From Lineus longissimus (taxonomy: Eukaryota; Nemertea; Pilidiophora; Heteronemertea; Lineidae): 64,000 bases of DNA. The stretch is taken from the NCBI RefSeq assembly GCF_910592395.1, contig NC_088318.1, forward strand, positions 7,440,349 to 7,504,348, written 5' to 3'. This document shows positions 47,590 through 63,069 of this stretch, piece by piece. The notes beneath the pieces are model-generated. The model searched no databases. It was not told the origin of the DNA and saw only the letters and a list, made by a program, of their open reading frames with translations. Positions within the stretch are counted from its first letter, which is position 1, and every line of letters begins with the position of its first letter. The translations under genes and the position numbers were made by a program.

Positions 47590-48975
47590 GCCTCTTGTTA
47601 ATTTGACCTACTTGTCGAGGTCACAGAGGTCACAACGCAGACACAGATATGGCCGAAATTGCATGTTTTGTGTTTTTCGTGTTGTGGCAATCCAAAGGTC
47701 GTGAGTTCAAACCCCGGTCAGGGACGGCCAAAAATATTTTTTTATTTTATTATTTTTTATCTTTTCCCTTTTGTCTTTTCTGACCTGTATCTTACATTTT
47801 CTTGATTTTTGGCTCACCGTAGGGGAGTCTTATGTAATACCGCAGTGTCCGTCGTCCGTCGTCGTCGTCCGTCGTCGTATCCTATTTAAAAAACAGTGGC
47901 ACGTTTCTTAACCGCTAGGGCTATGAACTTAAAACTTTGTACACAGCACCCCCTAGGTCAGGTGACCTCTGACACTGAATTTCGGTCTGATCTGATTCTC
48001 AACTTGGCCACCAGGGGGCCAAATGTCGATATCTAAAAAGTGTGATATCTCGCTTATTAGTGACTTGTTTTCGATGAAACTGGTGTTGTAGGTACTCATA
48101 GCAAATATACATCTTCTATCTTACGGGTTTTTAATTTGACCTGCTTTTCAAGTTCACAGAGGTCATATGGCGTAAATTGGCCGTTAGAGTGTAAACTATG
48201 GCACGTTTCTTAACCACTAAAGCTATGAACTTGAAACTTGGTACATATAACCCCCTATATCACATAGCCTCTGGTGCTGAATTTCAGTTTGATCTGATTC
48301 TCAACTTTGCCACCAGGGGGCCAAAAGTGGATATCTAATTTTTATGGTAGGTACTCTTAGGAAGAATACATCACATGTCTTACGGGTTTTCAATTTGACC
48401 TACTTTTCAAGGTCACAGAGGTCATATGGCGTAAATTGGCCGTTGGAGTGTAAACTATGGCACGTTTCTTAACCAGTAAAGCTATGAACTTGAAACTTGG
48501 TGCATATAACCCCCTACATCAGATAACCTTTGATGCCGAATTTTGGCCTGATCTGATTCTTTATTCGGCCACCAGGGGGCCATAATGGAAAAAGGAAGAA
48601 GTGCAATATCTTGCTTATTTGAGTGAATTGTTTTCGATAAAATTTTTATGGCAGGGACTTCTAGCAAGGATACACCACATGTCCTACGATTTTTGGATTT
48701 GACCTCCTTTTCTAGGTCAGAGAGGTCAAATGGCGTAAATTGGCCATTAGAGTGTAACTATGGCACGTTTCTTAACTGCTGAAGCTATGAACTTGAAAGT
48801 TGGTACATGTAACCCCCTACATCAGATAATCTCTGACACCGAATTTTGGCCTCATCTGATTCTTGATTTGGCCACCAGGGGGTCAAAACTGAAAAAGTAG
48901 GACGTGCAATATCTTGCTTATTAATGACTTTTTTTCGATGAATTTTTTATTGCAGGGACTCTTAGCAATCACACG
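47590..48975 (+). repeat. ~300-bp-unit repeat array (family 1), plus orientation, second plus copy
   Basis: The head at 47806 (TTTTTGGCTCACCGTAGGGG) and GTCGTC microsatellite are followed by core GGCACGTTT at 47898, 48200, 48459 and 48762 (302, 259 and 303 bp apart; one unit has an internal deletion). A partial unit end (TTGACCTACTTG...) lies upstream at 47598, and a tRNA-like B-box (GAGTTCAAACCCC) at about 47702. Confidence 0.85.
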
Positions 48976-49211
48976 ATATTGATCTTGTTGATGTCATAGA
49001 CAATTATTGGTTGGATCATAAACTTATATATACTGCCCTGTCTTATTACTTGACATCAATACACATCTAAAAATCAATACACATCTAAAAAAAGTCTTCA
49101 TGCCTGATTGTGTTCACCATATTCACCTCTAAACTAAGCATGATCCTGCCTACTAAAAGATGTTTTCGGTGAGCACAATGGCCCCTGGCCGTTTCATTTT
49201 TATTCTAAATC

Positions 49212-50274
49212 ATGAGTGAAAGAATGTACAGTTATGTCTCTTTAGAGAAGTATTTTAGTAAAATGCAGTATTTCAATCAAATGAAAAAGGTAACACCTAT
49301 GAATCAGGTAACACCTATGAAACAAAATGGTTACATTAAACCAAGGGTTGAACCATTAATGACAATCTCTGAAGAAGATCCGGACAAAGTGCACAGAGCA
49401 GAGCTCGATCTTACAGTAACACCTATGAAACAGTATGATACATTCACAGGAAGTGATGCTCAATTGTGCCATAATTGCAAACGATGGACACTTTTTGAAT
49501 GCCAGAAAAAAACTGAATTTTGACAGACCGGCCAAGCAACTTTACACGTACTGCAGGAATTGCAATTCGACCACTTACAGTGATGACTTTAAGAATCCAG
49601 AAATCACTATTGAGAACAAAACACGTTACTTTGACTACATCATCATAAACCTTGGCCAGACACGTCTGTCAGATTTATTGGTAAATTATTTGAAACATTT
49701 TGTTGAAAGTAGGATTAAGGTTTACTTCTCAAGTCCAAGAAAATGGCTCTGTGCGGCCAGCTATGAAAAAACAGTCCTGAATGCCTTGCGATTTGGTATC
49801 GTTAAACTCAAACCCAATGATGTCTTACCTGGTCTAGAGTGTGACACTTATTTAGAAATTGAATTCATTAACAGAGCAATTAGTAAACCTCGGTTGACCA
49901 AAGACAATTTCACAGATCTCAGAATGGTTTCCTTGGCATTCCTCAAATATCTTCATTACAGGGGAGTTAAAATTAACATAAATTACAAGCTGTTTTTACA
50001 CCAAGCATTTAAAGCATTGAAAATTGATTATGTAGTATTGAAACCGAATCCAACTGATAAGGACCGACTGGATGATTTGAGATCACTATGGTCTGGTTTC
50101 TTAGGAAGTATTTTCTTCAAAAATTACAGGCTTGAACATGAAAATGAACAAGCAATCGATAAACAAAGTGAAATTTTATTGAAGGCAATAGAGGTGCAAG
50201 ATACCAGTAAATGTTACCCTTTACCATGTAGTCTAGAACTTGCAAGATCTAGATATCCTCTTTCTGGTAAGTAG
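49212..50274 (+). pseudogene. Polinton protein with paired CxxC motifs, unknown, frameshifted
   Basis: Two overlapping frames (49212-49523 and 49435-50274) join at a run of seven A near 49505, giving a protein of roughly 350 residues. The N-terminal part has an in-frame tandem VTPMNQ/VTPMKQ repeat and one hairpin insertion (49382-49407, coding DPDKVHRAEL). CHNC (frame 1) and CRNC (frame 2) form a probable zinc site. The rest is a mixed alpha/beta region with FDYIIINLGQTRLSDLLVNY and YLHYRGVKININYKLFL. I do not recognise the family. The next gene starts 34 bp downstream in the same direction. Confidence 0.55.
49378..49411 (+). repeat. Degenerate double-hairpin insertion
   Basis: GGACAAAGTGC followed by CAGAGCAGAGCTC is flanked by GATC (49377-49380 and 49408-49411 approximately). 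Insert plus one flank is 30 bp, in frame with the host ORF. Confidence 0.55.
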
Positions 50275-50308
50275 GACTTTTCCTAGAAGGGATTTTCCGT
50301 TCAAATAA

Positions 50309-51025
50309 ATGAATAATCAGACATCAACGATAATTGAGCAGCAAATGAAACAAATCGGAGTAATCCCAGTTAATACAGGTTCAAATCCAGCTAATCCCAT
50401 TTCAACTAATTACCAACAGAATGCAGCTAACTTTCAACAGAACACTGCTAATTACCAACAGAATTACACAACAAAGCAACAAGCTTCTAACAAGGCGTTA
50501 AATAGTTGGAATTTAGTCAGTTCTAGTCAAGGTCTAGTTAACACTAGTCAAGGCCTAGTTAACCCTAGTTGCCAACTGGAGCTACGCTCTCAGGACAAAG
50601 TCCTACTAGGGTCAACTAGAGCTACGCTCTCGGGACAAAGTCCGCCTAGCTCTCAACTAAATTCCAACTACTTGACTGAAAATGGCCTTAAAGCTAAACA
50701 AGACCTCGAAGTTCTGGTGGCAACAGGTAAAAGCAAGGATTTCCTAAATAAACAGTTTACATTTAATGACTTAGACGCAATGAATGAGAAGGAAGTATTG
50801 AAACACCATAGGATCTACCAGACAAAGATGGCTGCCAGACTTAACGATTCATTGGGTAAGACAGTCTTAAAAACTTACACTAAATTAACAAAGTTTTTCT
50901 TGCCTGTTGATGACGAAGACCAGCTGTACGAAGACCTAAGAAATGATTACATTGTTACCAATGAATTGGACAGATGGTTAGGATGGTTGAGTTTGAAAAT
51001 GGGTGCACTAACTGCTCTTGCCTAA
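50309..51025 (+). CDS. Conserved Polinton protein, unknown role
   Basis: 238 residues. The N-terminal half is low-complexity (QQNAANFQQNTANYQQN; SSQGLVNTSQGLVNPS). It contains two tandem 40/41-bp hairpin units (50573-50658, coding QDKVLLGSTRATLSGQSPP). The C-terminal half is ordered and helical (FNDLDAMNEKEVLKHHRIYQ; LGKTVLKTYTKLTKFFLPVD; YEDLRNDYIVTNELDRWLG) and resembles a C-terminal region I associate with Polinton/adintovirus proteins of unknown function. The frame is intact. Confidence 0.55.
   Translation: MNNQTSTIIEQQMKQIGVIPVNTGSNPANPISTNYQQNAANFQQNTANYQQNYTTKQQASNKALNSWNLVSSSQGLVNTSQGLVNPSCQLELRSQDKVLLGSTRATLSGQSPPSSQLNSNYLTENGLKAKQDLEVLVATGKSKDFLNKQFTFNDLDAMNEKEVLKHHRIYQTKMAARLNDSLGKTVLKTYTKLTKFFLPVDDEDQLYEDLRNDYIVTNELDRWLGWLSLKMGALTALA
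50573..50658 (+). repeat. Two tandem double-hairpin units, in a Polinton gene
   Basis: Each unit is GAGC-TAC-GCTC followed by GGAC-AAA-GTCC. The two units are bracketed and separated by CAACT (50573, 50613, 50654). Spacing is 40 and 41 bp, 81 bp in total, so the reading frame is preserved. Confidence 0.7.
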
Positions 51026-51098
51026 TCAACACTGATCACTTTAGGACATTGTCAAGAAACAAAATCTGCTAGTGAACATGAAAATTTCATAAGATTAA

Positions 51099-51598
51099 AT
51101 GGAAGTGGAGCAGGACAAAGTCCAGAGAGCAGAGCCCGAGAGCATAGCTCGAGTGACGGACAGTGAAAAGCCCCTTAAGAGAGCAAGATCAGAAAAACAA
51201 ATTGCATGGTCTCGAGAATTAGGTAAAAGATCTCAGGAATTCAAGAAGTCAAAAAGGAGAGGTTTACTGGGAAAGACGATGAACCCAGGAAAGAAGATGA
51301 ATCCAGGAAAGAAGATGAATCCAGGAAAGAAGATGAACCCGAACAAAGTTCACTTCATAGCATTCATAATCAACCAGAGCTCGATAAGCCTGAAAATACT
51401 GGAAGTTCCAGGAGTACAACACTGTATGTCATTTTAGCTGCATTTGGTTTTGCAGTCATCATTTACTGCTATCCTAAGATTAAAACTAACAAGAAAGTAC
51501 TAGTAGGTAGTAAACCAGAAGGATACAAATTAAAGGGTAGTAAACCAGAAGGGTGTTGCACAACTCCTAAAACATGTAATCTTAGTTTAATGGAGTAG
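51099..51598 (+). pseudogene. Polinton small membrane protein, frameshifted in a tandem repeat
   Basis: It starts at ATG 51099 with a basic N-terminal part (KRARSEKQIAWSRELGKRSQ). Within the first 50 bp lies a hairpin insertion (about 51104-51151, coding DKVQRAEPESIAR). An 18-bp unit (coding MNPGKK) repeats from about 51288 to 51350. A different frame then continues to 51598 with a single membrane segment (TLYVILAAFGFAVIIYCY) and a Lys-rich tail. Either frame stays open across the repeat, so the switch point is uncertain. Confidence 0.5.
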
Positions 51599-51625
51599 AA
51601 TTTATTCTAGTGATACAACAAGAAT

Positions 51626-52582
51626 TTACTCAAACACACTATTCTTAGTTTCAAGTGAAAAATTTAAAGAAACTGAGCTCCCTCTGAAATTAACTATTTT
51701 ACCATTCTCATCAGTGATTTCAAATTTGACTTGATTTGTACATTTTTTGTTCACTATTTTCTTACAATTGAGTTCATATCTCTGGTATTGTACCTGATCA
51801 CCATCTTCAACAGGAACGATACATAAAATGTCAGAATGTTAATTGTTGTAGAGGGTCTTAGCTTTGTCAACCAAATTTGATCTTATGAATAATTCTTTTC
51901 TGTAAAAGTTAAGTGGCTTGGTGGAGTAGTATTTTCCTTTCTTGTTGAACTCATCTTGTTTAAAGCCGAACCATTCATTTATCACACGGGATAAGCGTAA
52001 GTAGGATGTTTTGCCAGCTGGTGCATCATCTACAGTACCATAAAATATGAGATTAAGGTAAAAGTATTTGTCCTCTGTAAGTTCAAGGACTAGGCAATTT
52101 TTGTCACAGTAAATTTTCACATGGCTTATTCCGTTTTCTTTTATGTATGATTTCCATTCCTCACAAAACGAACTTAAATTAAAATGCCGAGAGTATGGAA
52201 ATGTAGATTGACTTTTTTTTATTATCGTTTTAATAAAAAATCGTATCATTTTTTCTAAAAAATTCAAACAAATTTCATCTGGTGTCGCATCGGGTTTATT
52301 TTTAAAGTCTTCAATGCATTGTTCTATTATGGTTACATTCAGTGATTTATCAAGTTTAACATTCAGTGATTTATCAAGTTTAACATTCAGTGATTTATCA
52401 ATCTTAAACTCTTCGTAAAGAAACATCAATAATTGGGCACGCGCTGGTGGCAAATCGCTTGTCCACCACGAATTGTAAAACGCTATCGTTTTCAAAGTGA
52501 TCGATTTTATGTTCAATGGGTCTGTTAAGTTAAGCTCAAATATGGCTTCATCGCATTCATTCTCAAAAATTATGAAGTTCAT
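51626..52582 (-). pseudogene. Polinton capsid-like protein, in-frame TAA
   Basis: The main frame is 52582-51839 (247 residues, IFELNLTDPLNIKSITLKTI and NSWWTSDL near the start), ended by TAA at 51839-51841. The same frame stays open to 51626 for another 70 residues, ending with the strand-rich VKFEITDENGKIVNFRGSSV. A C-terminal strand pattern of this kind (hydrophobic strand, D-x-x-G turn, strand) is usual in Polinton minor-capsid/penton-like jelly-roll proteins. A 24-bp unit coding LDKSLNVK is repeated three times. An AT-rich 14-bp array lies just upstream. Confidence 0.5.
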
Positions 52583-52588
52583 TTTCTA

Positions 52589-52697
52589 TTTAATTAAAGT
52601 GATTTAATTAAAGTGATTTAATTAAAGTGATTTAATTAAAGTGATTTAATTAAAGTGATTTAATTAAAATGATTTAATTAAAGTGATTTAATTAATG
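52589..52697. repeat. Tandem 14-bp repeat upstream of the capsid-like gene
   Basis: Eight copies of TTTAATTAAAGTGA (last two degenerate), each with the palindrome TTTAATTAAA, start 7 bp before the ATG (minus strand) of the capsid-like gene and end at the polymerase stop codon. It may be a promoter-like element for the minus-strand gene or a simple expansion. Confidence 0.8.
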
Positions 52698-55682
52698 TTA
52701 AACATTCATTAAATCACTGTAATGAATGTATTTTTCATAGTACATACCGAAAGGCAGTGTAGAGATTCCATCCTCTAAGATGAAATGCTTGTCATCGAAA
52801 GGGCTTAAGCTTTTCTTGTCAATCTCTTCCAGATACATTTGATGCTTTTCTGACCTCAGATGACGCATTTTATGATTAAAAGTCTTAGTGTTTTCAAGAC
52901 AATCAACGTAGTTATCAAATGTAATAGACTTATTCACCACATTCTTAGCGATTTCCTTCAATTTCTTTGTTTCTGAATTTATAGTCGAGCCTTGCTCTCC
53001 AGACATAGTCTTGGTTCTGTACGCATACATCTTACTCCTCAAGGCAATGAATTCTATCATTTCGTCTCCTCCCAGCTCATCCTTAAAGTGGCCTGGCACT
53101 TTCTTCTTGCTAGTGTCGTAAAGAGGATGATCCTTTGGGTAATTACTGAAGTTGAAGTGATCCTTTAACTCTTTGAGGTCTGCTGTTAAATCGTCGGTTT
53201 TGATCTTCAAAACGAAAGAATCCGTGTCCAAATAAAGAAGTTCTAGGTTTTTCTCACCAAAGTAAGGTTGAAGTATGTTGTAGTAGAATTCATACATCAG
53301 CAGCTTGGACAACTCCAGTACTGCAGCTCCTATGTAGATTGGCTTGTTAAACTTTATTGATGTTTTCCTCATACAAATTGCCGCGCTACTTTCATCAAAG
53401 ATGTTAATCGATGAAAACCTGGGACTTGCCATGAAGTTCTTGGCACTTTCTCCATCTGTCACCAGTTCAATTTTTACCCTGTTCCTTACGTTTTCACATG
53501 TCTTTCCGTAGAAAGCATTGTTCATTAATTTGAAGTAATCTTTCTCGAAATCAGTAGTAGAAGCCATCCTCCTTTTAGTGTTGAAGTCGATGTATGATTT
53601 CAACCACTTTGATTGTTTGAAACTGATGACAGAATGGACCTTTTTTAGTATCATTCCTTGCTTTAAGTAAAACTGTAAAAGTCTGTAACGTACGATGTAG
53701 TTTGTCTTGTCCTTCTGTGTGAGGATCAATTTTTCTACCCTTGACCTCTTCTCGTCACCAAGTAACTCTTTCTGGTAAGGGCTTAATTCGTCGTCGTCTA
53801 TGAAAAGAGATTCTGGGCAGAATGGAAAGTTCTTTGACTTGAACTTGATTTCCTCTGGATAAGCCAAATCTACTTCGAAAAGATATCCTTCTTTAATGTC
53901 TTTAGGAATTGACATGATCGTCTGATAAGTTATGTTTGCTTTGATCATGGTATCGTCAAACATTTGAAAACTGCCGTAAGGCTGACTTTCCATCATTGCC
54001 CAGCCGTAGAGATTATTTGCGTCTATGTAGGGTAGTTTGTGGTGTTCATCTGCCTTGACATGTCTTGTTCCCATCACACCTGAAATTCCACCTCTTCTTG
54101 CCTTTTCAAAAGTAAGTAGGATATCGGTATTGGTAAGAAGTTCGAGATTTATGTCTGTGTGTTTCAATCCGGCCAACCAGGTCAAGCCAGGTGCTGAATA
54201 GCAGTGACAAGGATCGATCTGAAAATTGTTTAAATTAACGTCCCTGAATTTCTCGAATAAATCAGCTAACAAAAGAACATCTGTTTTGAGGTACAGGTCG
54301 ATGAACTCTCCATGATTTCTGATCTTGAAATGATCCCATATGTCTTTGGATTTTAGGTAAACTGAATCATCCGACATTTCATTCTTCAATTCATCAAAGA
54401 ACATAGACTTCTCTAAGTGAGTAACACTGTAACTTTCATGTGATGTGAAAAATGAATAAGGCACCGATCCTTTCTTCCTCAATAGTTTAAAATTGTCAGG
54501 ATTGGGGTAAGACTGTCTTGTTATCTTAAAGTCACCATCTTCCATCGATTTGGTGATGTTGTCCAATCCAGACTGTAAGAATCTGTAAGAGTCTAAAAAT
54601 TTAAAAAAACCTAACTCAAATACAATGTACTCTTCTGCGTTTTTAGCAAGAAGCTTCAGTTTCTTGTGTGACCTAGACATCAATTCTCTGATGAAGAGGT
54701 GAGCATCGTAATTACTGAGATTGTGAAAAAACACTGGGACAAACATGGCTTTCTTCTTGTTCAAGTTGCAAGCGTTGTGAGCAGCACCTCTGTATTTTCC
54801 ATTGTAGTGATTGTGATCTTGAACTCTGTCATCACCTAAAACTTCATTGCAGTAGTAACAGTTTGTTTCTTGGGGATATCTCACCAAATCTTCGTCTGTC
54901 ATGATGAGAGGAATGTTGCAGTTCAGTAGAGTTGAGAACGTCTCTTCCATTCTGAGTAACCAGTTACAGAAAACGTCAACTACATCAGCACCTCTGTGAC
55001 AGAGATACTCACTGGCGTAGATTTGTGGATAGTCAGAGTGAACGTAAACTCCAACTGCTGACGCAATCTGTTTGAATAGTTTTTTAGTGGTATCAGTATA
55101 ATTTGAGCACTGCTCTCTAAACTCTGTCGGATTTGTATTACCATTGACTGTTGTGCTTATCGCTTCGAAATCAGCATAGATTACAAAGGGAACTCTGTTC
55201 TTGAATGAGTGCTTTTCAAACTTAAGTTGTGACCATTTACTATTCGGTTGAGGCAGACTGATCTTACAGTAATCGTGTTGTCCACATTTCAATTTATGTC
55301 TTTCTAGTGTAGATTTCTTGTAAAAGTAATTCATGCATCTCCTACAAATGAATACACTATTCCTGTCAGTCTTGAAGAATAGATTTATGTCTCTTATGTA
55401 CATGAAATGACCCTTGAAATACAACAGATCGATAACATCATCATCATCGTGGTTCTTAGAGAGGTAGAGTGGTTCCAGCTTTGCGGCATAAATGCTTTTA
55501 GCCAATTCGTTCTCTAACTTGAAAACATTAATCTTGAGATTGTTGTCTTGTTCGATCTTAGGGATATCCTTTTGAACGCACACAGGAAATGATTTGATCT
55601 TTATCGAGCTTTCCTCGTTTTGAAAGTCCATGTTGGGATAGATTTCAGTGACGTTTCTGTCGTTTTTGTATCTGGCAGCCAA
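52698..55682 (-). CDS. Protein-primed DNA polymerase B, C-terminal 994 residues (3'-most copy)
   Basis: This enzyme replicates the element from a terminal protein. Visible motifs in order: a Cys/His cluster (CRRCMNYFYKKSTLERHKLKC), Exo I FVIYADFEA, an endonuclease-VII-like zinc insert (CYYCNEVLGDDRVQDHNHY...AHNACN), Exo II-like HNLSNYDAHLFI, Exo III-like YLKTDVLLLADLF, motif A YIDANNLYGWAM, motif B KLMNNAFYGKTCEN and motif C LYLDTDSFVLKI. The full palm and exonuclease sets are intact. The true N terminus lies upstream in the same frame but is cut off by a TAA at 55713-55715. The MAARYKND start used here is only the first available Met-like codon. Confidence 0.9.
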   Translation of the reverse strand: MAARYKNDRNVTEIYPNMDFQNEESSIKIKSFPVCVQKDIPKIEQDNNLKINVFKLENELAKSIYAAKLEPLYLSKNHDDDDVIDLLYFKGHFMYIRDINLFFKTDRNSVFICRRCMNYFYKKSTLERHKLKCGQHDYCKISLPQPNSKWSQLKFEKHSFKNRVPFVIYADFEAISTTVNGNTNPTEFREQCSNYTDTTKKLFKQIASAVGVYVHSDYPQIYASEYLCHRGADVVDVFCNWLLRMEETFSTLLNCNIPLIMTDEDLVRYPQETNCYYCNEVLGDDRVQDHNHYNGKYRGAAHNACNLNKKKAMFVPVFFHNLSNYDAHLFIRELMSRSHKKLKLLAKNAEEYIVFELGFFKFLDSYRFLQSGLDNITKSMEDGDFKITRQSYPNPDNFKLLRKKGSVPYSFFTSHESYSVTHLEKSMFFDELKNEMSDDSVYLKSKDIWDHFKIRNHGEFIDLYLKTDVLLLADLFEKFRDVNLNNFQIDPCHCYSAPGLTWLAGLKHTDINLELLTNTDILLTFEKARRGGISGVMGTRHVKADEHHKLPYIDANNLYGWAMMESQPYGSFQMFDDTMIKANITYQTIMSIPKDIKEGYLFEVDLAYPEEIKFKSKNFPFCPESLFIDDDELSPYQKELLGDEKRSRVEKLILTQKDKTNYIVRYRLLQFYLKQGMILKKVHSVISFKQSKWLKSYIDFNTKRRMASTTDFEKDYFKLMNNAFYGKTCENVRNRVKIELVTDGESAKNFMASPRFSSINIFDESSAAICMRKTSIKFNKPIYIGAAVLELSKLLMYEFYYNILQPYFGEKNLELLYLDTDSFVLKIKTDDLTADLKELKDHFNFSNYPKDHPLYDTSKKKVPGHFKDELGGDEMIEFIALRSKMYAYRTKTMSGEQGSTINSETKKLKEIAKNVVNKSITFDNYVDCLENTKTFNHKMRHLRSEKHQMYLEEIDKKSLSPFDDKHFILEDGISTLPFGMYYEKYIHYSDLMNV

Positions 55683-55712
55683 AAGACTCCATAGAAAACA
55701 TTTCTCATCATT

Positions 55713-57089
55713 TTATTTCACATTAATGACAGCTTTAGTTTGGAATGGTAAACTAGTGTAGTGACCGCCTTTACATTTCTTGTAGGAACATATCGTAAGA
55801 TCGCACGAAAATACTTCATTTAAACTCAGGCCGCTTCCTTCGAAGTATCGTTCCTCAATCGCGGCCTTTATGTAGTTCAATTGACTGGTTATGGCATAAA
55901 TTGAAATTATGCTTTCCATTGGAGATTGAATAGGATAGATAACCTTTTCGCCAGATCTGTCAAATTCAGCTTTAACTGAAATACTTATTTTATGATGGAA
56001 ATCAGTGAGCTTGAAGAGAATTTCTTCCAGTTTATCTCTGTACTCGTAAACGTGTTTTGCCGGTTTGCTAATTTTCAGACCAATGGTAACAACTGGCTTA
56101 CCAAATTCTTTAACCTCTTCGATATCCTTCACATTCTTTATGCTCTCCAATTCCTTAGCCTCGAATTCAAGTTTCTTGGTATCTTGTAGTAGAATAGGGT
56201 TAGGTAAACGCAGTGAACTCGAGTCTGACTGGCTTGTTAACTTCATTTGATGACCTTCCATTCTTTGATTGTCTTTCATTCTTTGATGACCTTTGGTTTT
56301 CCTATGTGCTGAAAGCGGAATGTTGCAGTTCAGTAGAGTTGAGAACGTCTCTTCCATTCTGAGTAACCAGTTACAGAAAACGTCAACTACATCAGCACCT
56401 CTGTGACAGAGATACTCACTGGCGTAGATTTGTGGATAGTCAGAGTGAACGTAAACTCCAACTGCTGACGCAATCTGTTTGAATAGTTTTTTAGTGGTAT
56501 CAGTATAATTTGAGCACTGCTCTCTAAACTCTGTCGGATTTGTATTACCATTGACTGTTGTGCTTATCGCTTCGAAATCAGCATAGATTACAAAGGGAAC
56601 TCTGTTCTTGAATGAGTGCTTTTCAAACTTAAGTTGTGACCATTTACTATTCGGTTGAGGCAGACTGATCTTACAGTAATCGTGTTGTCCACATTTCAAT
56701 TTATGTCTTTCTAGTGTAGATTTCTTGTAAAAGTAATTCATGCATCTCCTACAAATGAATACACTATTCCTGTCAGTCTTGAAGAATAGATTTATGTCTC
56801 TTATGTACATGAAATGACCCTTGAAATACAACAGATCGATAACATCATCATCATCGTGGTTCTTAGAGAGGTAGAGTGGTTCCAGCTTTGCGGCATAAAT
56901 GCTTTTAGCCAATTCGTTCTCTAACTTGAAAACATTAATCTTGAGATTGTTGTCTTGTTCGATCTTAGGGATATCCTTTTGAACGCACACAGGAAATGAT
57001 TTGATCTTTATCGAGCTTTCCTCGTTTTGAAAGTCCATGTTGGGATAGATTTCAGTGACGTTTCTGTCGTTTTTGTATCTGGCAGCCAA
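55713..57089 (-). pseudogene. Tandem-duplicated segment of the polymerase gene, copy 2
   Basis: 458-residue chimera. It begins like the polymerase ORF (MAARYKNDRN..., through the Cys/His cluster and Exo I to CNIPL), then jumps to SAHRKTKGHQ of the upstream N-terminal ORF and runs to AVINVK and a TAA. The unit is 1,407 bp, nearly identical to 57120-58496, and ends on the same codon as that copy. Confidence 0.85.
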
Positions 57090-57119
57090 AAGACTCCATA
57101 GAAAACATTTCTCATCATT

Positions 57120-58496
57120 TTATTTCACATTAATGACAGCTTTAGTTTGGAATGGTAAACTAGTGTAGTGACCGCCTTTACATTTCTTGTAGGAACATAT
57201 CGTAAGATCGCACGAAAATACTTCATTTAAACTCAGGCCGCTTCCTTCGAAGTATCGTTCCTCAATCGCGGCCTTTATGTAGTTCAATTGACTGGTTATG
57301 GCATAAATTGAAATTATGCTTTCCATTGGAGATTGAATAGGATAGATAACCTTTTCGCCAGATCTGTCAAATTCAGCTTTAACTGAAATACTTATTTTAT
57401 GATGGAAATCAGTGAGCTTGAAGAGAATTTCTTCCAGTTTATCTCTGTACTCGTAAACGTGTTTTGCCGGTTTGCTAATTTTCAGACCAATGGTAACAAC
57501 TGGCTTACCAAATTCTTTAACCTCTTCGATATCCTTCACATTCTTTATGCTCTCCAATTCCTTAGCCTCGAATTCAAGTTTCTTGGTATCTTGTAGTAGA
57601 ATAGGGTTAGGTAAACGCAGTGAACTCGAGTCTGACTGGCTTGTTAACTTCATTTGATGACCTTCCATTCTTTGATTGTCTTTCATTCTTTGATGACCTT
57701 TGGTTTTCCTATGTGCTGAAAGCGGAATGTTGCAGTTCAGTAGAGTTGAGAACGTCTCTTCCATTCTGAGTAACCAGTTACAGAAAACGTCAACTACATC
57801 AGCACCTCTGTGACAGAGATACTCACTGGCGTAGATTTGTGGATAGTCAGAGTGAACGTAAACTCCAACTGCTGACGCAATCTGTTTGAATAGTTTTTTA
57901 GTGGTATCAGTATAATTTGAGCACTGCTCTCTAAACTCTGTCGGATTTGTATTACCATTGACTGTTGTGCTTAGCGCTTCGAAATCAGCATAGATTACAA
58001 AGGGAACTCTGTTCTTGAATGAGTGCTTTTCAAACTTAAGTTGTGACCATTTACTATTCGGTTGAGGCAGACTGATCTTACAGTAATCGTGTTGTCCACA
58101 TTTCAATTTATGTCTTTCTAGTGTAGATTTCTTGTAAAAGTAATTCATGCATCTCCTACAAATGAATACACTATTCCTGTCAGTCTTGAAGAATAGATTT
58201 ATGTCTCTTATGTACATGAAATGACCCTTGAAATACAACAGATCGATAACATCATCATCATCGTGGTTCTTAGAGAGGTAGAGTGGTTCCAGCTTTGCGG
58301 CATAAATGCTTTTAGCCAATTCGTTCTCTAACTTGAAAACATTAATCTTGAGATTGTTGTCTTGTTCGATCTTAGGGATATCCTTTTGAACGCACACAGG
58401 AAATGATTTGATCTTTATCGAGCTTTCCTCGTTTTGAAAGTCCATGTTGGGATAGATTTCAGTGACGTTTCTGTCGTTTTTGTATCTGGCAGCCAA
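57120..58496 (-). pseudogene. Tandem-duplicated segment of the polymerase gene, copy 1
   Basis: Same chimera as 55713-57089, with one visible residue difference in the Exo I region (FEALS versus FEAIS). The head-to-tail arrangement shows a duplication with breakpoints after CNIPL in the polymerase part and before SAHRKTK in the N-terminal part. Confidence 0.85.
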
Positions 58497-58553
58497 AAGA
58501 CTCCATAGAAAACATTTCTCATCATTTTATTTCACATTAATGACAGCTTTAGT

Positions 58554-59207
58554 TCAGAATGGTAAACTAGTGTAGTGACCGCCTTTACATTTCTTGTAGG
58601 AACATATCGTAAGATCGCACGAAAATACTTCATTTAAACTCAGGCCGCTTCCTTCGAAGTATCGTTCCTCAATCGCGGCCTTTATGTAGTTCAATTGACT
58701 GGTTATGGCATAAATTGAAATTATGCTTTCCATTGGAGATTGAATAGGATAGATAACCTTTTCGCCAGATCTGTCAAATTCAGCTTTAACTGAAATACTT
58801 ATTTTATGATGGAAATCAGTGAGCTTGAAGAGAATTTCTTCCAGTTTATCTCTGTACTCGTAAACGTGTTTTGCCGGTTTGCTAATTTTCAGACCAATGG
58901 TAACAACTGGCTTACCAAATTCTTTAACCTCTTCGATATCCTTCACATTCTTTATGCTCTCCAATTCCTTAGCCTCGAATTCAAGTTTCTTGGTATCTTG
59001 TAGTAGAATAGGGTTAGGTAAACGCAGTGAACGAGAACGCAGTGAACTCGAGTCTGACTGGCTTGTTAACTTCATTTGATGACCTTCCATTCTTTGATTG
59101 TCTTTCATTCTTTGATGACCTTTGGTTTTCCTATGTGCTGAAAGATTACTGTAGGATATCTCCATGTTACATGTTGAACAATGTATTTTCTCATTTTTAT
59201 CAACCAT
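58554..59207 (-). pseudogene. N-terminal region of the Polinton DNA polymerase gene
   Basis: From ATG 59207 there is a C2H2 zinc finger (CSTCNMEISYSNLSAHRKTKGH spans residues about 10-31; written here only as landmarks C10, C13, H26, H32). A charged linker and the conserved FEGSGLSLNEVFSCDL...GHYTSLPF block follow, which in other Polintons leads directly into the polymerase. The frame stops at TGA 58554-58556. The duplicated copies have CAA at this codon but then meet a TAA nine codons later. A 15-bp tandem duplication (about 59026-59052) is unique to this copy. Confidence 0.75.
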
Positions 59208-59216
59208 TTCTATTTA

Positions 59217-59412
59217 GGATAACAAAAATTATTAAATTAAATTTTCAACATACATCGGGGGTGCTGATGGCAATAATGCTGATCCTAGTAATGGTGGTAC
59301 CAGTAAATCAGGTGTTGTTAATGGTGGTAGCAATAATGGTTGAGGATAGTAGTAGTGGTAATGGACAGAGTCCGGAGAGCGGTGCTCGAAATGGTGGTGG
59401 TGGTTAATTATT
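59217..59412 (+). other. Gly/Asn-rich open stretch between divergent or convergent Polinton genes
   Basis: The plus strand reads GADGNNADPSNGGTSKSG and NGGSNNG to a stop. In another frame it reads SSSGNGQSPESGARNGGGG to 59405. A hairpin insertion lies at 59361-59389. This could be the tail of a decayed plus-strand gene or just GGT/AAT-rich spacer. Confidence 0.25.
59357..59394 (+). repeat. Double-hairpin insertion
   Basis: GGAC-AGA-GTCC followed by GAGC-GGT-GCTC is flanked by AATGG on both sides, with the first GG shared. Insert plus one flank is 30 bp. Confidence 0.6.
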
Positions 59413-59422
59413 GGTGGCACCA

Positions 59423-60111
59423 TTACTGTGACTTCAGTTTCGCTATCATCTCTGTTTGCGCCAGTTTTTTTCCTTCTTCTAAAAAAGTCTTCTTTAAATA
59501 TTCCACATCAACAGCTGAACTTGCCTCCCTCTGTTTTTTTCTGATGGCATTTTTCATGGCAATGTATTTTTCCTTTTCTTTGAGAATCAAAGTAAACTCA
59601 TCTGTTGAAATGTGTGAATCACTCATGGCCTTACTTACCAGATCATTGATGGTGTTAAGTTTTGAAATTGCCAACATTCTGATATTCTCATGTTTTTCAA
59701 TTTTCTTAAGTATGCTTTTCTTCTGCCAACTTAGAAATGAGGAAAAAAGGGCACTTCCTATTGTCACACCACCCAAAGCTAAACCTATCGGTGCGGTGAT
59801 GACTCCAGCTAATGCTGAAATACCAACTGAGCCAGCCGCAACGCTTACAAAATTAAGACTATGACTTATGCCCGTAATTACGCTAAATGCTTTTTTGTAC
59901 TTTGAAAATATCTTTCTTCTAAATTCAATCTCGCTTTCTAAGAAACTCTTAACCTCACATATTTGTTTAATCTGAAAGCCTGAGGGTTACTTTCTGTGTG
60001 CTTTTCAGACCTTTCAGAGTTGAAATGACTTTCAGAGTTTAACTGAATTTCAGAGTTTAATTGAATTTCAGAGTTTAATTGACTTAAATCTGGATAAACC
60101 TTGCTGTCCAT
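59423..60111 (-). pseudogene. Conserved Polinton membrane-hairpin protein, frameshifted
   Basis: The frame ending at 59423 can be read upstream to about 59970. It contains SVITGISHSLNFVSVAAGSV, a long Gly/Ala-rich hydrophobic hairpin (ISALAGVITAPIGLALGG), then a helical SILKKIEKHENIRMLAISKL and DEFTLILKEKEKYIAMKNAI. This hydrophobic hairpin plus 'KHEKI..LA..KL' plan recurs in Polintons of other invertebrates; the function is unknown. The probable start at 60111 is in another frame, so there is a frameshift near 59975. The N terminus has three to four QLNSEI repeats. Confidence 0.55.
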
Positions 60112-60119
60112 CCATTTAA

Positions 60120-60524
60120 TTAGTGGGAAAAACTAGAATCAGTTGTTCTGACATTTCTAGTGTTTAGTGTTGATCTTGCAGACACTACAGGTTTTTTAAG
60201 TACATTAAATTTTAAAGGTTTTTCGACCACAGCAGGTTTTAAAGGGGTTTCAGGCTCAGCAGGTTTTAAAGGTTTTTCGACCACAACAGGTTTTAAAGGA
60301 GTTTCAACCACAACAGGGTTTAAAGGTTTTTCGGGCTCAGCAGGTTTTAAAGGAGTTTCAGGCTCAGCAGGTTTTAAAGGTTTTTCGACCACAACAGGTT
60401 TTAAAGGAGTTTCGGGCTCAATCTCCAACTTTGACTCTTCTTCTGCCTCTAATTCTCTATGAAATCGTTCTAATCTTTCTTTCCAATTACGTGGTCATTT
60501 TGTGTAATCCCAAGTTCTATTCAT
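60120..60524 (-). pseudogene. Pro/Lys repeat protein of the Polinton, in-frame TGA
   Basis: The start ATG at 60524 gives MNRTWDYTK, then TGA at 60495-60497, then the same frame continues PRNWKERLERFHREL and an acidic linker into about eight 10-residue repeats of the type (E/P)xPLKPxxxEK (60180-60428), ending DSSFSH at 60120. A duplicated copy of the start region at 60748-60816 has CGA (Arg) at the position of the TGA. Its biochemical role is unknown; a structural or DNA-binding role is only a guess. Confidence 0.5.
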
Positions 60525-61042
60525 TTATTCAGATGAAAATGTCTGAAAATGACTGAAAAAATCAATAGATGAAAGTTCAATAACCTAATGTTCACATAAA
60601 TTAACATTTACTACAATAATGTTTTCAGTTTAAAAAGATGGTGACTTATTCACCAGTAATGGTGACACCAGTTGAAATTTATCTCTTAAATCCTCTGGTG
60701 TAGTTAATTTTACTGTCATTAAATTATGATTTAGTCTATCACTGATCTCTATGAAATCGTTCTAATCTTTCTTTCCAATTACGTGGTCGTTTTGTGTAGC
60801 CCCAAGTTCTATTCATTTATTCAGATGAAAATGTCTGAAAATGTCTGAAAAAATCAATAGATGAAAGTTCAATAACCTAATGTTCACATAAATTAACATT
60901 TACTACAATAATGTTTTAAGTTTAAAAAGATGGTGACTTATTCACCAGTAATGGTGACACCAGTTGAAATTTATCTCTTAAATCCTCTGGTGTAGTTAAT
61001 TTTACTGTCATTAAATTATGATTTAGTCTATCACTGATCTTC
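60456..61042. repeat. Tandem duplication, two copies of ~293 bp
   Basis: 60456-60747 and 60749-61042 are nearly identical. Each contains the end of the small 67-residue ORF and the start of the Pro/Lys-repeat ORF. The copies differ at one CGA/TGA position (60787-60789 versus 60495-60497) and a few other bases. Confidence 0.85.
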
Positions 61043-61125
61043 ATCATTAAATTGGATGTTTCTTGGTTTAATCCATTTTGAAACATAATGTTATTTAATT
61101 TCCAAATATCATTAAGTAGAAACAT
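60922..61125 (-). CDS. Small Polinton protein, 67 residues, unknown
   Basis: From ATG 61125 it reads MFLLNDIWKLNNIMFQNGLN and then MMKISDRLNHNLMTVKLTTP to a TAA at 60922. It overlaps the end of the HNH gene by 14 bp, which suggests it is a real downstream gene of the same minus-strand cluster. It is predicted helical, and I recognise no domain. Confidence 0.4.
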   Translation of the reverse strand: MFLLNDIWKLNNIMFQNGLNQETSNLMMKISDRLNHNLMTVKLTTPEDLRDKFQLVSPLLVNKSPSF

Positions 61126-61867
61126 TGTAAAACTCGGGATAACCCCCAAAATACTTGTTTGTTATCCTTATCCACTCGTTTATCACGTTTTGGTCTCGAT
61201 AGTCAAACCAGTTTTCATTATGCTTTTTGATCATAAAGTTAATTGAGCGGTCCAATTGCTCTTTGAAAATACTCCAGTTGACTGTGGAACTCTTCTGCCT
61301 GTTTTGTGTTTTAGACATTGGCCGAATGTTAAACCAAGAGTAACACAGTTCTGGATGATCTTTGAATTCCTTGATTGGTAAAACATGATCCAACTCCTCT
61401 TCAATTATTTGTGATAGACACCTTTGGTAGTCTAACCAATCCATGAAGAACTCATTGGAACAACCTAGATTAAATGATGATGATGATTTCAAATCTGAGT
61501 AACCAGTTAACTCTACTTCAGAAATATGGCCTTTAGAAATACGGTTTAAACCTACCCTTATTCTATGCCTGTCTCTATTACCATTCTTATCAAGATGATC
61601 TTTTTGGGATAAATTAACACAAGCTCTACATTCGCGTCTTTTTCCTTCTTTACCGAATTCACCATCGCTTAGTAATTTAACTTCTCCACATTTACCGCAT
61701 GTCTTTGTTTTGGTACCACATGATTTACAGTAGTCCAGTAACTTGCCTCTTCTGTTCTTTTCAGATTGACTTTCAAATTTAGATGCATTGCACTTGACAC
61801 ATTCCTTACCTGTTCCTAAATTAACATTTACTGTACCATAGTTGTTCACTATTATTTGACTCTCCAT
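61112..61867 (-). CDS. HNH endonuclease with N-terminal zinc ribbons
   Basis: 251 residues, intact. Four CxxC motifs come first (CVKCNAS, YCKSCGT, CGKCGEV, CRACVNL), forming two probable zinc ribbons, followed by a basic helix (DKNGNRDRHRIRVGLNRISK). The HNH core is LDHVLPIKEF, then CYSWFNIRPM, then NRQK: His of the DH pair, central Asn and a C-terminal basic residue. HNH nucleases cut or nick DNA. The gene is not part of the Polinton core set and may be a homing-type passenger or a replication/recombination nuclease. It lies between the integrase and small ORFs on the minus strand. Confidence 0.7.
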   Translation of the reverse strand: MESQIIVNNYGTVNVNLGTGKECVKCNASKFESQSEKNRRGKLLDYCKSCGTKTKTCGKCGEVKLLSDGEFGKEGKRRECRACVNLSQKDHLDKNGNRDRHRIRVGLNRISKGHISEVELTGYSDLKSSSSFNLGCSNEFFMDWLDYQRCLSQIIEEELDHVLPIKEFKDHPELCYSWFNIRPMSKTQNRQKSSTVNWSIFKEQLDRSINFMIKKHNENWFDYRDQNVINEWIRITNKYFGGYPEFYNVST

Positions 61868-62038
61868 TTAAAGGATAAAAAGATTTTAAATTATGTTTTT
61901 TAGGCTTTTAGGCTTTTTATGTCTGAAATTGGCAACCATTCATTGAATTTGTCACTGTAGCCTTTCCATTTCACTAATCCGTATTTTTTTACCTTTAGTG
62001 GTCTTGCGCCTTATTATCTTCTCTATTTTGTACTCTAT

Positions 62039-63069
62039 TTAGTCAGGGTTGGGAACATTACTTAATTCCTCCTCATAGAAATATCCTTGAATTTCTTCCT
62101 TTTGGTAATCTTCAAGTTTGTAGACAATAGGATCAGTGAAGATGATCTGTCTTATTTGAAAAACTTCTTCAGTGAAATTGGGTAAGTAGCCTTTGTCGAA
62201 AATGGTCTTGTACTTTGAAATTCTGACACTGTCGCCAACCTTGTACTTCGGATCTCCAAATGTTTCTTTAAGATGTAGGCCGTAAAGGTTGTACCAGACA
62301 GTTCCTTCATTCTCCCTCTTTCTGGCGTCAATTGGTTTCATCCCTATTGATGAGTGAAATGAGTTGTTGTAGCCGCTCACCAAGTCATCTAGGACATCGA
62401 CCCACTTGTCAGTTTCCTTTGCGGTGAAGTACTTCCACATTTTATCGTTTAAAGTTCTGTTTAACCTTTCCACAACTGCTGCCTTCTTACTTGAAAATGT
62501 AGAGAACCACTCTATGTTGTTTTCTCTCAAGAGTTTTTTGAAGTGTTGGTTGTAGAACTCATTGCCTTCGTCAAATGGAATTTTCTTTGGTATCGCCTCC
62601 TCAAAGATCACTTTAAATGCATCTCTGATTTCTTCTCCTCTCTTGCCATAGCCCAAGCATAGCGACTGAATAGGTCAATTACTGTCAAGATGAATCTGTT
62701 GCCTTTATTCTGTTCCTCAAATTTTTGCATGTCCACAAGATCTGCTTGCCATTGTTGATCGATGTAAGATACCATTGTCTTTCGGAACGTAAATTTCTTA
62801 ATGGCCGGTTTGTGTAGTTGGTGAGTTGGTAGTGTGTCTAGAAATTATTTTACTTCCTTGTACCTGATCAGAGCTATGCTCTCAGGACTCTGTCCGTCAG
62901 GACGATGTCCGATCAATTTTTTATCTTCCCTTACTTGTTTCCATATCTTACTTAATGAACTGTAAGCCACAGGACTTTCATGATTGTAGTACAAATCTCT
63001 CAGATACCGTTCGATGTTGTCTGGATTCGACTGGACTTTGTCTGGGTCTTTTAGTTCTGTTTTACTCAT
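62039..63069 (-). pseudogene. Polinton retroviral-type integrase, broken
   Basis: This DDE enzyme would insert the element. It starts at ATG 63069 (MSKTELKDPDKV) and carries IERYLRDLYYNHESPVAYSS. A 45-bp hairpin insertion (about 62867-62911) flanked by TGATC adds 15 codons without shifting the frame. A TAA (62845-62847) interrupts the N-terminal region just before FLDTLPTHQLHKP. The core then shows DQQWQADLVDM (first Asp) and VIDLFSRYAWA. A frameshift at about 62650 leads into the 62656-62039 frame with Asp in DEGNEFYN, Glu in AAVVERLNRT and a C-terminal domain (YKVGDSVRISKYK; KGYLPNFTEEVF) specific to Polinton integrases. Confidence 0.85.
62867..62911 (-). mobile_element. Triple-hairpin mini-insertion in the integrase gene, 45 bp
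   Basis: In element orientation it is GGACATCGTCC, TGAC, GGACAGAGTCC, T, GAGAGCATAGCTC: three perfect 4-bp-stem, 3-nt-loop palindromes. It is flanked by direct repeats TGATC. Insert plus one repeat is 45 bp (15 codons), and the flanking integrase sequence is in frame across it. Confidence 0.7.

Follow-up and report, generated by a model that had tools for sequence, protein, structure and literature searches.

The host element and its hairpin insertions

The window, by which we mean the whole 64-kb stretch of DNA analysed here, contains a Polinton/Maverick, as judged from predicted proteins: polymerase B, integrase and A32/FtsK-type ATPase are all recognized. The polymerase appears to be of the organellar/viral type (L011:317-4153, in a related copy, matches PF03175, E 3.9e-19), and the integrase of the retroviral type (L011:6535-7683 matches rve, E 3.6e-11, and includes a chromodomain). 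Presumed capsid genes (L010:3460-4848, L011:8818-9582) have no Pfam match. The A32-like ATPase gene was used for placing Polinton copies in the genome, and at least 150 places were scored.

52698-55682, minus strand: DNA polymerase B of the Polinton, via relative L011
61112-61867, minus strand: endonuclease-VII-like (HNH) protein, candidate mobilising enzyme (PHROG 1035, E 4.5e-11)
62039-63069, minus strand: integrase region with two open stretches (62039-62656, 62848-63069), via relative L011
63074-63688, plus strand: A32-like packaging ATPase (Pox_A32, E 3.3e-14)

Two palindromes, GGACN3GTCC and GAGCN3GCTC, occur seven and ten times, respectively, in the window (0.56 and 0.33 expected). A scan with the 27-bp pattern, allowing up to three stem mismatches, finds ten copies or relics in 49-64 kb; in 1-49 kb, it finds none at this threshold and one with four mismatches. 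These results, with counts far above expectation, bear out the recurrence of the palindrome pair described in the initial annotation. The "both orders" of palindromes described there are merely the two strands, since each hairpin is palindromic.

49381-49407, plus strand: 27-bp element with one stem mismatch, flanking repeat ATC, in open reading frame 49209-49520
50578-50604, minus strand: 27-bp element within gene 50309-51025, flanked by repeats of AGT (plus-strand ACT)
50618-50644, minus strand: 27-bp element, 30-bp insertion, in the 50309-51025 gene
51112-51150, plus strand: 27-bp element (51112-51138), then an extra GAGC-ATA-GCTC hairpin (51140-51150), in open reading frame 51099-51437
52986-53012, minus strand: older element, stems AGAC-TAT-GTCT and GAGC-AAG-GCTC, in the DNA polymerase gene
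55104-55130, minus strand: decayed element, three stem mismatches, in the polymerase gene
59362-59388, plus strand: 27-bp element lying past the end of minus-strand reading frame 59426-59986, within a repeat of the GGTAATGG type
62866-62914, minus strand: three-hairpin array within the integrase reading frame, an insertion of 45 bp

Tandem copies spaced by 1407 bp repeat the relic at 55104, which thus reappears at 56511 and 57918. All three relics were previously overlooked, as was the element at 52986, which is nonetheless confirmed by empty alleles: among other Polinton copies, L011, L027, L028 and L166 are occupied at this site, and L016, L018 and L024 are empty.

Comparable evidence exists for other elements of the window. 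The 30-bp insertion at 50578 is missing from ten other copies aligned, and a separate comparison finds the exact empty allele in four loci. The site at 50618 is occupied at the same place in L010, L019, L020, L023 and L026, and empty in L013 and L014; what had been described as one 81-bp unit is instead two separate 30-bp insertions. The integrase-site insertion is absent from L167 and L168 and longer in L170. No empty allele was found at 49381, where the sole other copy compared (L166) is occupied; at 51112, in two group-1 Polintons (L166 and L171, both occupied; group 2 is unalignable there); or at 59362, where L168 is occupied and L167 ambiguous. Some details of the initial annotation need correction. 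The repeat flanking 49381 is ATC rather than GATC, and the trace near 63031 belongs to a 21-24-bp tandem repeat, not to an element. In-frame genic insertion at 59363 is unsupported, the site lying in repeat DNA past a clear minus-strand gene.

A 27-bp unit with empty alleles

Scanning the 391-Mb genome (the window's own assembly) for GGACN3GTCC-N3-GAGCN3GCTC, we find 1,960 exact matches, versus none for a reversed control pattern. Aligned copies yield the 27-bp element CGGACTTYGTCCTGAGAGCANAGCTCG, one common unit present in 188 copies with up to two mismatches. It comprises little beyond two hairpins, each with a 4-bp stem and a 3-nt loop; variants have CGA, AGA or GGA in place of the spacer TGA, and AAA or AGA in place of the loop ATA. 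The ends, CGGAC and CGAGC, agree at only 3/5 positions, so the element is without a terminal inverted repeat. Copies lie on contigs of 15.9-29.4 Mb, and hence reside in nuclear rather than mitochondrial DNA.

Each insertion adds 30 bp, or ten codons' worth, because the 27-bp unit is accompanied by a 3-bp target duplication. For 69 of 91 comparable single copies, the site is exactly empty in another locus, which retains one of the 3-bp repeats; an initial looser count, which takes in neighbors inside arrays, gave 143/173. By site, exact empty alleles are found at 25 of the 34 that are comparable (43 sites in all) and are lacking at nine, the number of empty sites rising to 26 when a gap of -6 to 0 is accepted. 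Elements in related Polinton copies are not independent, so p-values at the level of elements are too strong. Flank gaps fall at -3 (599 pairs), +27 (470), +57 (56) and +87 (16). An indel survey blind to the motif gives a sharp peak at 30 bp, which accounts for 86 of 248 strand-collapsed insert events (116/333 before collapsing). Both hairpins are present in 70 of these 86 events, and in 24/24 events of 60 bp.

Could the palindromes instead be ancestral, conserved parts of the proteins, lost in some copies? Both Polinton groups carry an element at one polymerase site, and two of seven comparable group-2 sites are occupied in group 1. However, four of the seven are empty in group 1 (one is ambiguous), the identical 27-mer turns up in several reading frames and in either strand, and the exact empty alleles, with one 3-bp repeat left, contradict this explanation, which we regard as vanishingly improbable. 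The initial annotation had proposed a mini-mobile element, to be checked by alignment against insertion-free copies, and had named as contrary outcomes an ancestral peptide and a lack of empty alleles or flanking duplications. The alignment, run here, favors mobility, in line with the 30-bp peak found without the motif. We consider it probable that the 27-bp copies represent a mobile, Polinton-confined element.

The 3-bp target duplication is mostly ANN. Insertion sites are of the type YN-ANN, with Y at -2 in 21/22 and A as the first duplicated base in 19/22; the duplicated bases are mostly A-G/T-T. Among the 188 copies, 122 have a direct repeat of exactly 3 bp and no longer, and identical 3-bp flanks are seen for 131 of 199 elements, versus 2.9% at random. 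The remaining 68 lack identical flanks, and at some sites the flanks are consistently unequal (AGT/ATC, ACC/ACA, GGT/AGT), which implies that some insertion events were imprecise or converted afterwards.

Additional copies often adjoin existing ones, in either orientation, giving rise to arrays that grow by 30-bp steps. Spacing is exactly 3 bp in 53 of 58 neighboring pairs, and the number of units varies among Polinton copies at 15 sites. At hairpins, the Polinton polymerase might slip or switch templates and duplicate 30-bp units in this way, with occasional ectopic copying and without a transposition enzyme. Such a process would account for same-orientation tandem arrays, which hold one to seven units at a single site, and for growth by 15-bp half-units at the integrase site; the unequal flanks would also suit imprecise copying. 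Yet slippage does not account for insertions at 43 separate sites, for their preferred targets and 3-bp duplications, or for the opposite orientation of 21 of the 53 pairs spaced by 3 bp, and we deem it an unlikely source of the family.

Confinement, reading frames and stems

Polinton DNA surrounds every copy whose surroundings were examined (100/100, 73/73 and 8/8 in three samples, 37 of the 73 being assigned by proximity only), in agreement with the initial annotation, which saw no copies elsewhere. In-frame stops are rarer than chance, occurring in 12 of 153 elements in clear open reading frames, versus 43.7 expected. Loop and frame are not significantly associated at the level of sites (p 0.35). 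That insert lengths are multiples of three is a consequence of the fixed 27+3 geometry. The idea that the element is specialised for coding DNA is better recast: confinement to a gene-dense element stands, and a length of 27+3 is unable to shift the frame.

Among 63 mutated 27-mers, 85 stem pairs are changed, of which 29 are compensated, 10 are wobble pairs, 41 are broken, and 5 are altered on both sides without pairing. The 29 compensated pairs compare with 2.3 expected under independent changes, an excess inflated by one inherited variant. An unbiased comparison restricted to shared sites shows no significant excess of conservation in stems relative to flanks. As single-stranded DNA, the hairpins are weak: one 27-mer folds with -4.1 kcal/mol, and 18 of 200 shuffles are at least as good. 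The earlier statement that loops vary while stems stay paired applies loosely. The proposed constraint on the nucleic acid rather than the peptide finds little backing after insertion, where stem conservation is not significant. The same data bear on whether the hairpins are selected as functional Polinton signals (replication, packaging, RNA structure). The compensated pairs, inflated as noted, and the many copies in each Polinton are consistent with such a role; variable presence at 25 of the 34 comparable sites and the lack of significant stem conservation make it, in our judgment, quite improbable.

Possible mobilization and related systems

If the elements move as their alleles indicate, they are, to our knowledge, among the smallest transposing units described, and represent a parasite that resides within genes belonging to a second mobile element. 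We envision a non-autonomous nano-transposon, mobilised in trans by an enzyme that would recognize extruded hairpins and make a 3-nt staggered cut, perhaps timed with Polinton replication or packaging. Polintons consist almost entirely of genes, so presumably only a family that can be read through, with an insert length divisible by three, could spread in them; the 27+3 geometry would then be a way to spread in gene-dense DNA with frames unbroken. The mobilising enzyme may conceivably be the Polinton's own endonuclease-VII-like protein, a speculative candidate suggested by co-occurrence and by the activity of its family, which cleaves cruciforms and other branched DNA. The gene is present in 11 of 12 loci that show an integrase (the twelfth is a 2-kb piece), and 4/4 of its members match PHROG 1035. 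In the alignment, the protein contains the element peptide once in L011, twice in L168 and not at all in the window copy. The fuller scenario is rather doubtful: a gene-adapted Polinton hyperparasite, i.e., a 27-bp transposon without terminal repeats, its sole recognizable feature two adjacent hairpins, moved by the host Polinton's endonuclease-VII-type nuclease with a 3-nt stagger on extruded hairpins, and with frame-specific variants readable in nearly every frame.

It is also conceivable that a host transposase with a 3-bp duplication moves the 27-mer in the manner of a MITE, Polintons being merely where copies survive or are seen. CACTA and PIF/Harbinger elements duplicate 3 bp of target, and the element resembles a MITE in its unvarying length, its 3-bp duplication, its preferred targets and its many copies. 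On the other hand, terminal inverted repeats are absent, two transposase sites would hardly fit in 27 bp, and a host-wide transposase leaves unexplained why all sampled copies lie in Polintons. MITEs are about 100-600 bp long, according to PMC4495683, a range that the element falls short of. The same paper describes the Submariner MITEs of Pandoravirus salinus, which are 243 bp long, with terminal inverted repeats, a TA duplication and a Tc1/mariner partner; 10 of 30 copies lie in predicted coding regions, and one paralogous empty site is reported. Submariner illustrates how transposons of host origin can spread through the genome of a virus and, like the present element, is non-autonomous and multiplied inside a virus-type genome; ours is 27 bp, lacks terminal inverted repeats, duplicates 3 bp and has no known transposase partner or longer relative with the same ends. 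Overall, we view MITE-type spread as somewhat unlikely.

Taken as a mobile, Polinton-confined element, the 27-mer has counterparts in mitochondrial DNA. Like yeast GC clusters (M1-M4, 30-80 bp, typically non-coding), it is short, palindromic and mobile, with polymorphic positions and tandem arrays; some GC clusters lie inside the protein gene VAR1, altering product size (PMC4464245). It differs in its 27-bp length, its residence in a nuclear virus-like transposon, largely in reading frames, and its 3-bp duplication. The repetitive and double hairpin elements (RHE and DHE) of sponge and fungal mtDNA likewise scatter hairpins, singly or in pairs, over a small genome; a few lie in coding regions without a frameshift, and stems are reported to be conserved and loops variable (PMC2800124). 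Those elements are mitochondrial and mainly intergenic, whereas ours is nuclear and largely genic, has a single constant length and duplicates a defined target. A dispersed mobile unit of two neighboring hairpins, as in DHEs and GC clusters, is found here too.

Rickettsia palindromic elements, which are bacterial and about 100-150 bp long, were reportedly found by Ogata and colleagues to sit in frame within numerous unrelated protein genes and to be translated. The 27-bp, non-bacterial element appears similar in its in-frame insertion in unrelated protein genes, given that 141 of the 153 elements are stop-free and that peptides are predicted in the endonuclease-like protein; the likeness to these elements (mentioned in PMC2635572 and PMC5799277) is one of description. 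Repeated 10-codon insertions in polymerase, integrase and nuclease offer a ready-made test of protein tolerance to inserted peptides. It has long been suspected that hairpins drive the mobility of Rickettsia palindromic elements and of hairpin elements in mitochondria, and the Polinton places with and without each insertion constitute a natural record for dating and testing such mobility.

The repeat unit, its duplication and its empty alleles

The double hairpin GGACN3GTCC-N3-GAGCN3GCTC disperses with a 3-bp duplication, grows beside existing copies and is confined to Polintons in all samples drawn from the genome. Its two palindromes, which the initial annotation had picked out from the sequence alone, are real: GGACN3GTCC occurs 7 times in the window (0.56 expected) and GAGCN3GCTC 10 times (0.33 expected). 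Across the window's own 391-Mb assembly (30 contigs), the combined pattern is abundant: its 1,960 exact matches divide into 985 and 975 between the two strands, versus 0 matches for the same pattern written backwards. Chance palindromes are ruled out by the excess in the window and by this control. The strict pattern also gives single matches in 20 stretches of viral contigs and in at least 117 stretches of prokaryote genomes; one each in scattered hosts, these look like chance occurrences. No Rfam family reached its gathering score in the 48–64 kb part of the window.

A single 27-bp unit, CGGACTTYGTCCTGAGAGCANAGCTCG, emerges from 188 copies with at most two mismatches (106 exact). The direct repeat around these copies is exactly 3 bp, and not longer, in 122, 2 bp in 7 and absent in 59. 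In a larger set of loci, identical 3-bp flanks are seen at 131 of 199 elements, compared with 2.9% of random positions. When 3 of the 188 elements with less than the full 60 bp of flank are dropped, 173 of the remaining 185 are comparable with other copies, and 143 of the 173 have an exactly empty counterpart that keeps one 3-bp repeat, a count inflated by neighbouring units within arrays. The gap between flanks is −3 in 599 pairs, +27 in 470, +57 in 56 and +87 in 16. Because of this inflation, arrays were merged into sites: 200 elements in 142 arrays reduce automatically to 43 sites, a total that may be low. With comparison restricted to other loci and to the outer flanks of whole arrays, exactly empty alleles are found for 91/130 arrays, 69/91 single copies and 25/34 sites (26 when gaps between −6 and 0 also count). 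Arrays (12 of the 142) and sites (9 of the 43) that had nothing to compare with in another locus are left out. The initial annotation had named an alternative, that the palindromes are ancestral parts of each protein; the exact empty alleles found instead rule this out. Unit number varies between copies at 15 sites. At one site, at a gene end, the number of units runs from zero in locus L028 through one (L024), two (L020) and three (L026) to seven (L023).

A survey of indels made without reference to the motif found 333 insert events of at least 6 bp in pairwise alignments of group-2 stretches (Polinton copies whose ATPase is the more distant from that of the window), 116 of them 30 bp long, some events being seen on both strands. 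Collapsed by strand, there are 248 events, although a single event may count more than once where flanks differ; 86 are 30 bp long, 70 of these with both hairpins, and all 24 of the 60-bp events carry both. Other lengths include 14 events of 29 bp and 16 of 18 bp, and 127 events lie between 20 and 40 bp. Among the 30-bp events that lack one or both motifs are out-of-register copies, some unrelated repeats and variant hairpins such as GGGAC-TTT-GTCCC with CAAC-GAA-GTTG. The second indel peak, at 18 bp, stems from tandem repeats, not hairpins (L010, L013, L015, L017, L027 and others).

The initial annotation had also placed a series of in-frame insertions between 49378 and 63050, and alignments, in one set showing at most five group-2 loci per site, bear on them. 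Position 50578 holds its own 30-bp insertion, absent from ten other aligned copies, and 50618 a separate one, empty in L013 and L014. The integrase site at 62866–62914 holds a 45-bp insertion that L167 and L168 lack; L170 has a longer one. Site 49381 is occupied in the one group-1 copy (ATPase closest to that of the window) compared, and 51112 in the two group-1 copies compared there. Site 59362 is not clearly in a gene; 63031 belongs to a short tandem repeat and is not an element copy. An older copy in the polymerase gene, at 52986, is shared with group 2; L016, L018 and L024 are empty there. Seven group-2 sites could be compared with group 1, where four are empty, two occupied and one ambiguous. 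The integrase-site arrays (L170 and window 62866–62914) grow by single hairpins in 15-bp steps, those elsewhere in 30-bp steps.

Target sites, reading frames and stems

Unoccupied sequence was found elsewhere for 22 target sites, one of which is truncated where its stretch ends. The duplication starts with A in 19/22 and ends with T in 16/21; a pyrimidine stands at −2 in 21/22. Genome-wide, a G at position 27 is followed by something other than A in only 8 of the exact copies. Neighbouring units are spaced exactly 3 bp apart in 53 of 58 pairs, of which 17 are plus-plus, 15 minus-minus, 16 minus-plus and 5 plus-minus. The 21 pairs in opposite orientation cannot come from slippage; such neighbours, together with the dispersed sites, rule out slippage as the sole explanation. 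The flanks differ at some sites, as where AGT stands opposite ATC and the empty allele has ATC; we provisionally take these cases to be imprecise events or later conversion.

Reading frames were called from the flanks only, giving 153 of 200 elements in clear frames; the other 47 were dropped. An in-frame stop occurs in 12 of the 153, versus 43.7 expected with random frames (p = 2e-10), or in 11 of 91 versus 26.8 when each distinct combination of site, frame and sequence is counted once (p = 7e-5). In the frame where the usual spacer TGA is a stop, it is present in 1/15 elements, versus 111/138 elsewhere. Because TGA is also rare in this frame at the site level (1/6 versus 28/38, p = 0.013), spacer variation follows the reading frame in part. 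In the frame where the usual loop ATA gives TAG, xTA is found in 1/23 elements versus 71/130 elsewhere, a link that is not significant at the site level (1/5 versus 23/44, p = 0.35).

In the 63 unique 27-mers that carry one to three stem changes, these changes affect 85 of the 504 stem pairs. Of the 85, 29 are compensated and 10 form wobble pairs; 41 are broken, and 5 are altered on both sides without pairing. The 29 compensated pairs compare with 2.3 expected under independent changes, in copies that share descent; in the main class, where GAGC/GCTC becomes GAAC/GTTC, many copies may have inherited a single old change. At 18 sites shared between copies (80 copies), loops diverge by 9.4%, flanks by 4.1% and stems by 2.4%. 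This comparison accepts any 27 bases enclosed by matching flanks and leaves out pairs with more than 24 flank differences and sites with fewer than three copies. Neither per-site contrast is significant over these 18 sites (stem versus flank, p = 0.62; loop versus stem, p = 0.09). Selection on the stems after insertion, hinted at by a biased, motif-selected comparison, is thus not supported by the unbiased one. Folding of single 27-mers as DNA is weak (−4.1 and −3.2 kcal/mol), being matched or bettered by 18 and 10 of 200 shuffles, respectively.

Host Polintons and confinement

The window hairpins lie among Polinton genes. In another copy, the related genes match DNA polymerase B (PF03175) and an rve integrase with chromodomain, and an A32 ATPase is present in the window itself, where the integrase region is open only in pieces. 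No relatives were found for the polymerase in viral contigs, or for the ATPase in viral contigs or phages. Of 515 candidate ATPases, 150 were scored: 45 belong to group 1 (92–100% identical, the window's own included) and the remaining 105 to group 2 (81–82%), many of them tied in score.

The first 100 of the 1,960 places, all on contig C1, lie without exception in fetched stretches, and all 100 have flanks that recur at other Polinton loci (a median of 11). Two more samples came from the whole genome. One comprises the 73 copies with first loop GCA, representing only a few sites; 37 are no more than 18 kb from an ATPase match (about 1 expected), 33 are sequence-verified, and the remaining 3 are in L024 and L028, both verified with the contig C1 sample. 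The other, chosen to enrich oddities, is made up of the 8 copies whose following base is unusual. All 8 are in Polinton sequence: five stand in stretches that are Polinton throughout, the other three in copies that have diverged or are partial. The weakest case is L212, with 182 matched bases and a 29-residue match (E = 1e-11). Every sampled copy lies in a Polinton, most of the 1,960 being outside single inspection. Loci L172 and L207 belong to Polinton lineages that have diverged (about 67% identity in places); each has an exact double hairpin, which suggests that the association of element and Polinton is older than groups 1 and 2.

The amino-terminal part of the polymerase gene stands in tandem copies 1407 bp apart (window 52698–58526), within which the same relic element repeats at 55105, 56512 and 57919. 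A diverged tandem repeat of a few hundred bases, judged by eye, lies just before the Polinton genes (48001–49000).

Related systems and a candidate mobiliser

In how it works, the element is nearest to yeast GC clusters (PMC4464245), mitochondrial hairpin elements (PMC2800124), organelle palindromes of Volvox (PMC2670323) and Rickettsia palindromic elements (PMC2635572, PMC5799277). Being nuclear, 27 bp long, housed in a Polinton and flanked by a 3-bp duplication, it is a member of none of the four. Nor is it a MITE in the strict sense, because terminal inverted repeats are missing; we call it a hairpin-type mobile element. No such Polinton element was described in the titles and abstract openings among the matches listed in literature searches, most subscription journals being outside their scope. 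On Polintons, these covered palindromes from 2021 on, hairpins and miniature elements from 2012 on, and short palindromes in Polintons or Mavericks from 2006 on. Beyond Polintons, they covered palindromic and double-hairpin elements up to 2016, hairpin elements that duplicate their target from 2017 on, the palindromic elements of Rickettsia up to 2014 and GC clusters from 2005 on.

How is the element moved? We infer a trans-acting activity on Polinton DNA that would recognise the element by its hairpins. Enzymes of the endonuclease VII family are known to cut cruciforms, and one Polinton-encoded protein resembles them:

Window 61112–61867: gene for endonuclease-VII-like HNH protein, Polinton-encoded
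L011:5301–6443 (another Polinton-bearing locus): gene for the same protein

It matches PHROG 1035, endonuclease VII (E = 4.5e-11 in the window, 3.9e-13 in L011), as do 4/4 of its relatives. The protein is present in 12 of 27 fetched loci searched and in 11 of 12 integrase-bearing loci, the twelfth, L170, being a 2-kb piece. Its own gene contains the element peptide once in L011 and twice in L168, and lacks it in the window and L167. It had no NCBIfam match and only weak Pfam matches, sequence comparison with solved structures gave no convincing relative (best E = 0.39 and 0.85), and its AlphaFold model is uninformative (pLDDT 33). We offer it as a tentative candidate for the mobiliser, a role that it may fill, though less likely than not. 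Inside the polymerase lies another weak match to endonuclease VII (PF02945), which stays under the cut-off of that family. The window also has a weak tyrosine-recombinase match, below cut-off, at 34291–36480, and a similar protein, judged by eye only, stands beside a Polinton copy at L010:1531–3033; these two proteins possibly represent another mobile element.
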